Origin: Candidatus Sericytochromatia bacterium
Lineage (GTDB): Bacteria; Cyanobacteriota; Sericytochromatia; S15B-MN24; JAQBPE01
Length of the DNA: 37,993 nucleotides
Assembly (NCBI GenBank): GCA_035285325.1
Contig: JAYKJB010000019.1
Location: 1-37,993 of the forward strand
Direction: 5' to 3'
Below the pieces are notes generated by a model. It was not told the DNA's origin. It did no database searches and worked only from the letters and a program-made list of their open reading frames with translations. Shown in pieces: positions 33,474 to 37,876 of the stretch (its first letter is position 1; the number at the start of each line of letters is the position of its first letter). The position numbers and the translations under genes were made by a program.

Positions 33474-34862
33474 TCAGGCCGTGAGGGGCTCCGTCGCCAG
33501 CGGGGGCGTCGGCGCATCGAGCTGGCCCAACGGCAATTCCACCCGGAAGCAGGCGCCCTGGTCTGGCTGACTCTCCACCCAGATGCGGCCCCCGTGGGCC
33601 TCCACGATGGCCCGACAGATCGACAACCCCAGGCCCACCCCGCCAAAGCGCCGCCCCAAGGTCCCCTCGACCTGATAAAAACGTTCGAAGATGGGGACGT
33701 GGTGCTCGGCCGCGATGCCGATGCCCGTGTCGGCCACGTCCAGTTGGGCCACGCCGGCCCCTGGCGTCAGCCGGACCGTCACGTGGCCTCCAGGCGGGGT
33801 GAACTTGAGCGCATTGGTCACCAGGTTGGAGACCATCTGGCGCAGGCGGGCGTGGTCCCCCACCAGAGGGATGGCCTCCTCGGCCTCCACCTGCAGGGTC
33901 ACGGATTTGGCCTCGAACATGCCCCCGTGTTCCCGGATCACGCTCTGGACCGTCTCGCGCAGGTCCCTGCGCGCGTGGGCGGCCAGCGGCGGCAGACCCG
34001 ATTCCAGCTTGGCGTAGGTCAACAGGTCCGAGACCATCTGACGCAACCGTTCCGCGCTGCTGGCCACATCGTCGAGCACCCGCGTGCTGCGAGGCTCTGA
34101 GGCGAGCTGCGGATGGTTCCGCAGCAAGAAGATGCCCGTCAAGATGGCCGTCAGCGGCGTGCGCAGCTCGTGGCTGACGGTGTGCAGAAATTCGCTCTTC
34201 ATCTCATCGAGCGCGCGCAGCTCCGCGTTTTTTCTCTCCAGCTCCCGCTGGACGTTGCGCAGCAGAAAGATCACCATCCAGATGCCCACCAGCAGGTGCA
34301 ACACCCCGGAGGAGAAATAGCCCACCCAGGCCCAGGCCGTTCCCCCGATGACTGGAAACAACAGGGTCAGGGCGCCAATGCTGCCCACCAGCAGGCCCAG
34401 CACCTTGTTGGATTGCTGCTGGTGGGTGCTCGGCAGGCGCCACAGGGCCAGGCCCAGCGCCCAGTGGTTCCAGACCATCGCCAGGACGCCTGGAATCAGC
34501 GCCATTTCAAGCCTGCGGGTGGTGACGGCCAGGACGAGCCCCAGCACCAGGCAGAACGCGTGGCCTTTCCAGCCGGGGCCATGCAGGGGGTCTTCGGAGG
34601 CCACCTCACTGGCGCAGCGAAAGACCAGGAAGGCGCCCAGCTGGTACAGGCCAACCAGTGGGATCAAGACCACCAGATGGTGCGAACTGCCGACGCTGGA
34701 GACGAGCAGCACGAAGATCAGCAGGAAGACCGCGTAGCTCCAGGTCCAGCTCTGGAAGAAGGGTTCCCGATAGATGCGGGCGATCGAGAAGGAGAAGATC
34801 AGGGGAATCAGGAATCCCAGCAGGTTCGTCAGCTTGCCCAGCGTGATCGCTTCGATGAACAC
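33474..34862 (-). CDS. Membrane histidine kinase with seven predicted helices
   Basis: A 462-residue sensor kinase. The first 200 residues form about seven hydrophobic helices with short loops (approximately 11-29, 41-57, 61-82, 103-115, 118-141, 153-172 and 176-201) and no sizeable periplasmic domain, suggesting it senses something within the membrane. A short coiled coil leads to HisKA with [14 protein letters not shown] (His231) and the ATPase domain: NLVTNALKFTPPGG, DTGIGIA, IFERFYQVEG and GGVGLGLSICRAIV. The GTG at 34862 has GGAG five bases upstream; an ATG 14 codons earlier has no ribosome binding site. It is divergent from the oxoamine synthase fusion and has no adjacent response regulator. 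Confidence 0.9.
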   Translation of the reverse strand: MFIEAITLGKLTNLLGFLIPLIFSFSIARIYREPFFQSWTWSYAVFLLIFVLLVSSVGSSHHLVVLIPLVGLYQLGAFLVFRCASEVASEDPLHGPGWKGHAFCLVLGLVLAVTTRRLEMALIPGVLAMVWNHWALGLALWRLPSTHQQQSNKVLGLLVGSIGALTLLFPVIGGTAWAWVGYFSSGVLHLLVGIWMVIFLLRNVQRELERKNAELRALDEMKSEFLHTVSHELRTPLTAILTGIFLLRNHPQLASEPRSTRVLDDVASSAERLRQMVSDLLTYAKLESGLPPLAAHARRDLRETVQSVIREHGGMFEAKSVTLQVEAEEAIPLVGDHARLRQMVSNLVTNALKFTPPGGHVTVRLTPGAGVAQLDVADTGIGIAAEHHVPIFERFYQVEGTLGRRFGGVGLGLSICRAIVEAHGGRIWVESQPDQGACFRVELPLGQLDAPTPPLATEPLTA

Positions 34863-35056
34863 CGTTGCTCCATTCCTCTCGCCGCACCCGGCCTGGCTGC
34901 TCAAACCAACCGTCTGAGGGCGATTTCGTTCCCCACATACCCGGCCCGAACCCCTTGTTGGTGCGCCGTCGTCGGCGCGACGGGTCGGGACCTCGCTGGC
35001 CGCTCGTTGTTGCTTGCGGCAACCATGGGCGTTTCATGCCAGAGGCCGGTTTGCGC

Positions 35057-35067
35057 GGGGGGGGGGG
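35057..35067 (+). repeat. Homopolymer run of eleven G
   Basis: It lies 66 bases upstream of the oxoamine synthase fusion start, in a 270-base divergent gap. The run is long enough for slippage. No strong promoter is evident on either side; TTGACC at 35083 is a -35-like hexamer without a good -10. Confidence 0.85.
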
Positions 35068-35132
35068 TACAAGTTGCCTGTTGACCAAATTGTGAGAAAG
35101 GTCGTTTCTCTGTCAAGTGGGAGGGTTGTGAC

Positions 35133-37625
35133 GTGCGCAAGGCCGCCGACTATCTCGATGCGTGTGATCGCAGCCTGGGGCAAGCCGCTCAGCGGGGTTT
35201 GATGTACCGCACGGCCGAAGACCAGGCCTGCGATGGCCGTCTGATCACCCTCGACGGCGAGCCCTTGCTCCAGTTCGCCTCAGGCAGCTACCTGGGCCTG
35301 GAAATGGACCCGCGCCTGAAGGCCGGGGCGATCGATGCCATCCAGCGCTATGGCACCCAGTTTCCCTCGTCGCGCGCCTTCGTCTCGGCCCCGCTGTATG
35401 CCGAGTTGGAGGAGCGCCTCGGGGCGATTTTCGGCACGCCCACCTTGGCCACGGCCAGCTCGACGCTGGCGCACCTGGCGGCCATTCCGGTGCTGGTCAA
35501 TGAGGACGATGCGGTGCTGATCGATCAGCAGGTTCACGCCACCGTTCAGTCGGCCCTGAACCATGTGCGCGTGCACGGCGTGCCGGTCGAGGTGCTGCGC
35601 CACAATCGACTCGATTTGCTGGAGGCGCGAGTGCTGGAGCTGTCGCGGCGCTACCGACGGGTCTGGTACATGGCCGACGGCGTGTACAGCATGTTCGGCG
35701 ACGTCGCCCCGATGCCGCCGCTGATGGATATGCTCGAGCGCCACCCTGCCCTGCACTTCTATCTGGACGATGCCCACGGGATGAGCTGGACCGGGCAACG
35801 CGGCCGTGGGCACGTCCTGGAAGCCTTGCCGGCGCATCCGCGCCTGTATGTGGCGACCTCGCTGGCCAAGAGCTTCTCGTCGGGGGGCGGGGCGCTGATC
35901 ATTCCCGACGCCGAATTGCGCCGCAAGATCCGCACCGTCGGTCCCTCGCTGATCTTCTCCGGGCCCCTGCAACCCGCCAATCTGGGGGCGGCGATCGCCT
36001 CGGCCGAGATTCACCTGTCCGAGGAAATCGCCGGCCTGCAGGCGGACCTGCGCACCCGCCTGGAACATTGCAACGCGCGCTGTCTGGCGCTCGGGTTGCC
36101 GCTGCTCTCGACCGACCTGGTGCCGATTCGCTTCATCGCCACGGGACTGCCGCGCGCCAGCTATGAACTGGTCGAACGGCTGAAGCGGGACGGCTTCTAT
36201 GGCAACACGGCGGTCTTTCCCGCCGTGCCGATGCAGCGGGCGGGGCTGCGCTTCACGATCACCTGTCACCAGCAGCTGGCGGATATCGACGCCTTCCTCG
36301 CGGCGGTGGCGCGCCACCTGCCCGAGGTGCTGGAAGCCGAGGGCAGCAGCCTGGAGGAGGTGTTCGAGACCTTCGAGATTCCGACGAAACGGGCGATCGC
36401 CGCGGCGGATGTGCCTCCCGTGCGGGAATCGCTCGGGGGCACAGGGGGAGCTGGGGGGGCCTTTCGGGTGGCGCCCGAGAACCTGCGGGTGCGGCACGTG
36501 CGGACGATTGGGGAAGTGGATGCGGCCGTGTGGGATGCTTGCTTCGGGCGCCGGGGCAGCTTCAGCCACGAAGGCCTGCGCTGCCTGGAAGCCATTTTTG
36601 CCGAAGCCGCCCGTCCGGAGCATCGCTGGAACTTTCACTACCTCTGGGTCGAGGACGCGGAGGGCCGGATCGTGGCCGCCAGTTTCTTCACCGATGCGCT
36701 CTGGAAGGACGACATGTTGGCGCCCGCGCCCGTCTCGCGTGAGGCGGAGGCGCTGCGACGGACCGATCCGCTGGCCCTGTCTTCGCGTTATTTCGCCATG
36801 GGCAGCCTGCTGACCGAGGGAGAGCACCTCTACCTCGACCGGCAGCGCGACTGGCGGGCCGCCCTGCAACTGCTGCTGCGGGAGGCCGCTCGCCTGCAGC
36901 GCGCGAGCGAGGCCGATCACCTGGTGGTGCGCGACGTGCCCGATGCCGATCACGAATTGTCGGACTGGCTGTCAGCTGCCGGTTTCGTGCGCTTTGCCAT
37001 GCCGGAGGTGCTGGTCCAGACGCTGGATTGGCAGGACGAGGCGGCGTGGCTGGCGAGCCTGTCCAAGAAGGCCCGCCGGCATGTCCGCAAGGAGGTGCTG
37101 GGGTGGCGATCGCTCTATGAGGCCCGGGTGTATGGCCAGACCGCTGAGGCGCCCGGGGCGGCGCGCCTGGCGCACTGCCATGCCCTGTATCGCCAGTTGC
37201 AGCAGCGCCAGCTGGAAATCAACACCTTCGAATTGCCGGACACCACGCTGCCCACCCTGCTGGCGTCGCCGGCCTGGGAACTGGTCACCCTGCGCAAGCG
37301 GCCCTCGCCCGAGCAGCCGGATCCACCGGAAATTGGCATGTTCGTGAGCTTCATCGGCCCGGAGGCCTACGTGCCCGTCTTCGCCGGACTGGACGACGCG
37401 CACGTGGGGCGCGAGGGGCTCTATCGCCAGGTGCTCTGGCAGATCATCCAGCGCGCCCGGCACCACGGGGCCCGGCAGATCCGCTACGGGATCGGCGCGA
37501 CGCTGGAAAAGCGCCGGGTCGGGGCGCAGGTGCAGCACGTGTCGCTCTGGTTGCAGTCGCGCGACCTCTACGCCATGGAGCGGGTCGGCCACATGATGCG
37601 CGACGTGCGGCCCGGCGCGGTTTGA
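35133..37625 (+). CDS. Bifunctional alpha-oxoamine synthase / GNAT-type N-acyltransferase
   Basis: An 830-residue fusion. Residues about 1-400 are a fold-type I PLP enzyme of the alpha-oxoamine synthase family (BioF, KBL, HemA, serine palmitoyltransferase): ASGSYLGLE, the stacking His in IDQQVHATVQ, DDAHG (212-216) and the PLP lysine Lys246 in TSLAKSFSSGGGAL. Such enzymes condense an amino acid with an acyl-CoA. After a Gly-rich linker (about 420-445), residues about 445-825 resemble large GNAT-fold acyltransferases, with SKKARRHVRKEVLGW and YRQVLWQIIQRARHHGARQI. The GTG at 35133 has GGGAGGG seven bases upstream. One chain could form an amino-ketone and N-acylate it, as in sphingolipid synthesis; the substrates are unproven. 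Confidence 0.85.
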   Translation: MRKAADYLDACDRSLGQAAQRGLMYRTAEDQACDGRLITLDGEPLLQFASGSYLGLEMDPRLKAGAIDAIQRYGTQFPSSRAFVSAPLYAELEERLGAIFGTPTLATASSTLAHLAAIPVLVNEDDAVLIDQQVHATVQSALNHVRVHGVPVEVLRHNRLDLLEARVLELSRRYRRVWYMADGVYSMFGDVAPMPPLMDMLERHPALHFYLDDAHGMSWTGQRGRGHVLEALPAHPRLYVATSLAKSFSSGGGALIIPDAELRRKIRTVGPSLIFSGPLQPANLGAAIASAEIHLSEEIAGLQADLRTRLEHCNARCLALGLPLLSTDLVPIRFIATGLPRASYELVERLKRDGFYGNTAVFPAVPMQRAGLRFTITCHQQLADIDAFLAAVARHLPEVLEAEGSSLEEVFETFEIPTKRAIAAADVPPVRESLGGTGGAGGAFRVAPENLRVRHVRTIGEVDAAVWDACFGRRGSFSHEGLRCLEAIFAEAARPEHRWNFHYLWVEDAEGRIVAASFFTDALWKDDMLAPAPVSREAEALRRTDPLALSSRYFAMGSLLTEGEHLYLDRQRDWRAALQLLLREAARLQRASEADHLVVRDVPDADHELSDWLSAAGFVRFAMPEVLVQTLDWQDEAAWLASLSKKARRHVRKEVLGWRSLYEARVYGQTAEAPGAARLAHCHALYRQLQQRQLEINTFELPDTTLPTLLASPAWELVTLRKRPSPEQPDPPEIGMFVSFIGPEAYVPVFAGLDDAHVGREGLYRQVLWQIIQRARHHGARQIRYGIGATLEKRRVGAQVQHVSLWLQSRDLYAMERVGHMMRDVRPGAV

Positions 37626-37760: not shown

Positions 37761-37834
37761 CGGGGCGTAGCGCAGCTTGGTAGCGCACCACTTTGGGGTA
37801 GTGGGGGTCGTGGGTTCAAATCCCGCCGCTCCGA
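37761..37834 (+). tRNA. tRNA-Pro (anticodon GGG)
   Basis: A 74-nt cloverleaf can be drawn by hand. Acceptor arm CGGGGCG/CGCTCCG with one G-U pair, D stem GCGC/GCGC, anticodon stem CCACT/AGTGG with loop TTGGGGT (anticodon GGG), T stem GTGGG/CCCGC around TTCAAAT, and discriminator A. CCA is not encoded. Confidence 0.96.
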
Positions 37835-37838
37835 CCTG

Positions 37839-37860
37839 GACCCCCACTAACGTGGGGGTC
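37839..37860 (+). terminator. Hairpin just after tRNA-Pro
   Basis: GACCCCCAC and GTGGGGGTC pair perfectly around TAAC, four bases past the tRNA. The left arm is also exactly complementary to 37801-37809 inside the tRNA (anticodon stem plus variable loop), so two folds compete. There is no T tract. Confidence 0.55.
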
Positions 37861-37876
37861 GAGTCTACGAACAACA

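Follow-up and report, generated by a model that had tools for sequence, protein, structure and literature searches.

An oxoamine synthase fused to a Fem-like tandem GNAT domain and accompanied by signal-transduction genes: a candidate synthase of a cell-to-cell signal

What might be made by a protein in which a PLP-dependent oxoamine synthase and a GNAT-type transferase share one reading frame, next to a membrane histidine kinase? Such a gene lies in the window, i.e., the whole stretch of 37,993 nucleotides that was analysed, which is the entire contig C19 of a 3.83-Mb genome. A reading made from the sequence alone had proposed that condensation and N-acylation are joined in this one chain, possibly in a sphingoid- or ceramide-like lipid pathway or an acylated amino-ketone pathway. 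The evidence assembled here makes the fusion look more like a maker of a cell-to-cell signal than a maker of a membrane lipid. The features that bear on this question are as follows.

33474..34904, minus strand: membrane sensor histidine kinase, divergent from the fusion, with HisKA and HATPase_c domains; its aligned start lies near 34862
34254..34859, minus strand: multi-pass N-terminal sensor domain of this kinase, with about 6-7 transmembrane segments by hydropathy
34905..35132, no strand: intergenic region of 228 bp common to the fusion and the divergent kinase, from the sequence
35133..37625, plus strand: two-domain enzyme of 830 aa, oxoamine synthase plus Fem-like tandem GNAT; a stop-free ORF with 33 homologous loci
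35133..36332, plus strand: N-terminal PLP oxoamine-synthase domain, residues 1-400, from domain models, a BioF alignment and a tree
35766-35780, plus strand: DDAHG motif (D212-D213-A214-H215-G216), inside the N-domain
35868-35870, plus strand: codon of K246, inside the N-domain
36465..37622, plus strand: C-terminal transferase domain, predicted tandem GNAT of the FemX/MprF type, residues 445-830, from an AlphaFold2 model compared by Foldseek and VIA-align

The fusion gene and its oxoamine-synthase domain

The fusion starts with the GTG at 35133, which is preceded by GGAGGG at 35120-35125, 7 nt upstream; the N-terminus MRKASDF is also found in homologues, in agreement with this start. A scan with the C-domain across one genome per species (84,980 species) returned 33 loci, each of them a fusion or what a contig end or frameshift has left of one (L073, for example, is a fragment). 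At all 33 loci the C-domain is accompanied by an oxoamine synthase within one gene, which shows the fusion to be an ancient and conserved protein, not a chance run-on. Its carriers belong to the Cyanobacteriota (UBA8530, RYN_339), Bacteroidota, Myxococcota and Pseudomonadota, together with one actinobacterial bin, and several of the loci come from metagenome bins. Many genomes hold two or more paralogues, with a maximum of five or six. A plasmid search returned N-domain relatives only and no full-length fusion. The fusion is apparently undescribed: in the open-access literature, no paper was found that names DUF7793 or PRK07505, two families discussed below, or that describes an oxoamine synthase-GNAT fusion.

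Two observations of another kind were made along the way. At window 37761-37863, a tRNA-Pro (ggg) 135 bp behind the fusion is followed by a near-perfect hairpin-like repeat: 11 nt of the tRNA (37799-37809) have their perfect complement at 37839-37849, a short way beyond the tRNA end. We take the tRNA to be unrelated. An apparent open frame of 24,350 aa elsewhere in the same genome is a run of N and was discarded.

The N-terminal half of the fusion matches Aminotran_1_2 (E 8.6e-19), and oxoamine-synthase models reach 242 bits on it. By alignment, H133, S179, D204, H207, T233, K236 and R361 of E. coli BioF correspond to H135, S186, D212, H215, S243, K246 and R373 of the fusion, so that the PLP lysine (K246), the stacking histidine (H135), the Asp/His pair (D212/H215) and the carboxylate arginine (R373) expected of the alpha-oxoamine synthase superfamily are all present. 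The sequence-only reading had described a complete PLP oxoamine synthase with Lys246 and DDAHG; both were located where it had placed them, and the catalytic residues align with those of BioF. Two places in the pocket are changed. At the position of BioF Asn47, where the compared BioF, KBL, SPT and CqsA references keep Asn, the fusions carry Gly, Cys or Thr, and nearly all of them have small or polar residues in place of BioF Gly108-Phe109; both losses are common to the fusions and a stand-alone group, PRK07505. Because the catalytic residues are kept while these two places are altered, the chemistry of an oxoamine synthase should be intact in the fusion, probably acting on substrates unlike the known ones.

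Scores against NCBIfam models agree with the placement of the domain in a tree of 58 N-domain sequences. The window protein reaches 122 and 120 bits with the two SPT models (cut-offs 640 and 500), 160 bits with BioF (426 required) and 127 bits with KBL (460 required), and the fusions that were tested score 242-263 bits with the PRK07505 model (NF005697; cut-off 342). In the tree, the fusions form a single group (support 100/99) whose sister is a set of ten Rhizobiales plasmid proteins, two of which were tested and are PRK07505 members at 511 and 529 bits (cut-off 342). A long branch with 100/100 support separates the fusion and PRK07505 groups from BioF, KBL, SPT and CqsA/LqsA. The suspected kinship with serine palmitoyltransferase is not supported by the phylogeny, and a placement inside KBL or BioF, which would have refuted the sequence-only reading, was not found either; the domain belongs to no known clade. 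Membership of the CqsA/LqsA family was also considered for the fusion, and is ruled out by a score of 87 bits against a cut-off of 428 together with the separate 100/100 clades.

A predicted Fem-like fold in the C-terminal domain

In the window protein, the C-terminal half matches PF13480 and PF04339 at or under the cut-off, and 27 of 31 homologues match PF13480. A comparison of the C-domain profile with the sequences of solved structures gave weak, chance-like matches only. An AlphaFold2 model built from the 31 homologues (pLDDT 93, pTM 0.91) was closest to FemX (6snr; Z 23.8 over 308 residues, 4.2 Å) and to Sba18 (9wqy; Z 22.2 over 271 residues, 2.7 Å), which with Sbb17 represents the aminoacyl-tRNA-dependent peptide synthases (Z ~22 over ~270 residues, 2.7-2.9 Å). 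FemA came next, and then N-myristoyltransferase (NMT) and MprF at Z ~18. The best matches that run full length, i.e., Fem and Sba18/Sbb17, lie at Z 22-24, and on the strength of these full-length matches the model predicts that the domain is a tandem GNAT of the Fem type, with the fold of FemX and the aminoacyl-tRNA transferases. The GNAT-type domain that the first reading saw in the same frame is thereby confirmed on an 830-aa stop-free ORF and specified as a predicted tandem GNAT, and its idea of two sequential activities in one polypeptide stands as a prediction, with both domains in one chain. The modelled fold alone does not discriminate between acyl-CoA or ACP and aminoacyl-tRNA as the donor, given that NMT matches too.

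Sixteen residues (domain numbering) are invariant in the 31 C-domains: W23, E42, F45, E52, W55, Y59, K81, D83, M84, S91, E95, R98, G113, G119, R156 and D157. All of them, including an acidic and basic set, lie in the first GNAT half, where invariance is also better tested because one of the 31 rows spans that half only. In Fem enzymes, the acceptor is held by the first GNAT half. Free-standing C-domain relatives of ~390 aa occur in Flavobacteriaceae amid housekeeping genes (e.g., L181, 4707-5879) and give no hint as to the donor.

Signalling genes around the fusion

In the window, the fusion stands head-to-head with a multi-pass histidine kinase across 228 bp, a neighbour that the sequence-only reading had overlooked, and no response regulator adjoins this kinase. 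The same kind of neighbour was found for all six fusions of the window's class, which are spread over three genomes. Among the five others (two in G001, three in G002), the kinase is head-to-head in four and in tandem in one, and one head-to-head case has a second kinase behind the first. The HisKA kinases of these genomes total 15 in the window genome (3.8 Mb) and 73 and 132 in the other two, and with such totals a six-fold adjacency is not expected by chance, although the counts are not independent events since the three genomes are related. The sensor domain of the window kinase occurs in 3 of 18 genomes of the class, exactly those with the fusion, at sensor-to-fusion copy numbers of 1/1, 4/2 and 7/3; an exact match of this kind would arise by chance once in 816 if draws were independent, a figure that the relatedness of the genomes makes a rough guide. 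The sensor domain is absent from 14 fusion carriers outside the class, Bacteroidota among them. At the opposite end of the contig (window 964-2418, plus strand) lies a second histidine kinase, in a genome with only the 15 HisKA domains.

In Bacteroidota, the neighbour is of a different kind. DUF7793, a small protein predicted to adopt a STAS/SpoIIAA-like fold, which is a regulatory fold (pLDDT 89; closest structures 2q3l, SpoIIAA and further anti-sigma-factor antagonists), adjoins 35 of 38 fusions, and the remaining three lie at contig edges. A survey of 149 Flavobacteriaceae genomes, using >400 bits for the fusion and >100 bits for a strong DUF7793, showed that the two mark the identical 17 genomes, with DUF7793 within 4 kb of the fusion in all 18 cases. 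Six extra strong DUF7793 genes lie elsewhere in those 17 genomes, and weak matches (<55 bits) are also present in other Flavobacteriaceae. Co-occurrence counts of the fusion with either the sensor domain or DUF7793 are raw and uncorrected for phylogeny. Adjoining DUF7793 are PAS-kinases, kinase-receiver hybrids, or PAS-AraC and AraC regulators. In one locus (L052, 1898-3567), four tandem DUF7793 genes stand behind one fusion and are followed by a kinase and a receiver-like protein. Behind many flavobacterial fusions (L056-L070) stand a gene for RteC, a regulator of mobile elements, and conserved small genes; this suggests that the system is carried by an integrative element.

Elsewhere, a deltaproteobacterial bin (L134) has a kinase-receiver gene head-to-head with the fusion, L051 has a response regulator nearby, and six loci (L048, L049, L053, L072, L073 and L074) have no signalling gene within the stretch examined. 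In one Gammaproteobacterium (L076), the neighbours that diverge from the fusion encode a fatty-acid--AMP ligase and an acyl carrier protein, which we count in favour of a signal synthase as a probable source of its acyl thioester. Among the stand-alone PRK07505-type genes (L163-L173, Rhizobiales plasmids), several lie behind a PhoB-like gene annotated as a response regulator, in which Pfam detects mainly the DNA-binding half and the receiver weakly or not at all. A TraR-like autoinducer-binding gene follows a PRK07505 member twice (Rhizobium SL42 and Peteryoungia), a GNAT gene follows one relative, and for three Rhizobiales relatives the listed neighbours include no regulator. Across phyla, the constant companion of the fusion is signal transduction, its kind varying by lineage, which would be expected if the product is sensed and less so if each lineage merely regulates the enzyme.

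Candidate products and comparison with known systems

The explanation that we favour, and that we hold to be somewhat on the probable side, is that the fusion is a two-domain signal synthase whose product, a putative N-acylated or N-aminoacylated alpha-aminoketone, is read by the paired sensor. The N-domain would join an acyl thioester and an amino acid in a decarboxylative condensation that gives an alpha-aminoketone, as the intact oxoamine-synthase residues suggest. The Fem-like C-domain would then load an acyl or aminoacyl group onto the new amine, a step suggested by its fold and by the invariant acidic and basic set of the first GNAT half. The product would leave the cell, and the divergent multi-pass histidine kinase would sense it and so report population density; the conserved pairing and the co-occurrence point to this step. 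Several paralogues in one genome fit several signal channels.

The kinase that adjoins the enzyme may instead serve to regulate it, with no role in sensing the product. The product would then be a secondary metabolite, a pigment or a surface modification, whose making is timed by the kinases, STAS proteins and AraC regulators. Regulators do commonly adjoin enzymes, and RteC beside many flavobacterial copies points to a mobile element that brings its own regulation. However, the same enzyme is paired with different sensor types in different lineages, the sensor domain tracks the presence of the enzyme, and further biosynthesis or export genes are not conserved around the fusion; we regard such a metabolite as possible, if rather unlikely. 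The sphingoid or ceramide-like pathway of the sequence-only reading, or an acyl-aminoketone membrane lipid made by one chain, involves the same two kinds of reaction. In its favour, the CerS of bacteria acts as an N-acyltransferase (PMC11324152), and the fold matches include NMT, which takes long-chain acyl-CoA. This lipid proposal is nevertheless not supported: the N-domain groups apart from SPT in the tree and scores far under the SPT cut-offs, a clear Bacteroidota-type SPT exceeds the cut-off in only 1 of 28 fusion-bearing genomes, the Asn that SPT shares with the other references is replaced, and the conserved neighbours are sensor and regulator genes with no lipid genes among them. A membrane lipid seems quite improbable to us, and keeps its small share because NMT-like folds accept long acyl chains. 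Ordinary biotin synthesis or threonine catabolism, by a BioF or KBL with an added domain, could be entertained for the window genome, where the fusion is the sole oxoamine synthase found, but is contradicted by both model scores and by the tree placement outside both clades, and most Bacteroidota carriers own other oxoamine-synthase genes of KBL or BioF grade besides their fusions; we consider it highly improbable.

A more specific version of the signal-synthase explanation, which is bold and in our view unlikely, would see a new autoinducer class in at least four phyla. An N-aminoacyl-aminoketone, its amino acid drawn from aminoacyl-tRNA, would close to a pyrazinone-type signal, for which the DPO autoinducer of Vibrio is the comparison. 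It would be read by lineage-specific sensors, i.e., a multi-pass kinase in one cyanobacterial lineage, and a STAS protein with a PAS-kinase or AraC regulator in Bacteroidota.

Few groups are known to signal with small fatty-acyl ketones, and knowledge of cell-to-cell signals in Bacteroidota or in non-photosynthetic Cyanobacteriota is scant. If the fusion is a signal synthase, one gene and its neighbour would constitute synthase and receptor, which could be tested in culturable flavobacteria; DUF7793 and PRK07505 would gain their first functional context, and a capping step absent from the CqsA-type synthases would be added.

Among known systems, CqsA/CqsS and LqsA/LqsS are cognate pairs of a PLP synthase and a six-transmembrane histidine kinase encoded by adjoining genes (PMC3376566). 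The fusion shares with them a synthase of the PLP oxoamine-synthase fold beside a multi-pass membrane histidine kinase, an arrangement found for six of six fusions in the window's class, and likely also the condensation of a fatty-acyl group with an amino acid. As a positive control, six clear CqsA/LqsA genes were picked by model, and two of these had a histidine kinase nearby in the short stretches available. The synthases belong to different clades (100/100), a Fem-like domain is fused only in the protein described here, and the sensor domain of the window kinase has no sequence relation to that of the single membrane kinase that was located next to a CqsA/LqsA gene. PRK07505 is the sister clade of the N-domain, shares its pocket changes at BioF N47 and G108-F109 and sometimes has adjoining regulator genes, as well as autoinducer-binding genes, whereas it stands alone without the C-domain. 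FemX/FemA, Sba18/Sbb17 and MprF have the tandem-GNAT fold across the whole C-domain at 13-19% identity, but only here is that fold joined to an oxoamine synthase. Spt and CerS of Caulobacter carry out condensation and then N-acylation, as is predicted for the fusion; however, they are separate proteins, the fusion N-domain is not an SPT, and carriers and neighbours differ. Thus, the fusion would follow the logic of CqsA/CqsS and LqsA/LqsS, built on another oxoamine-synthase clade with a capping domain added, so that the systems would be alike in logic and not in ancestry.
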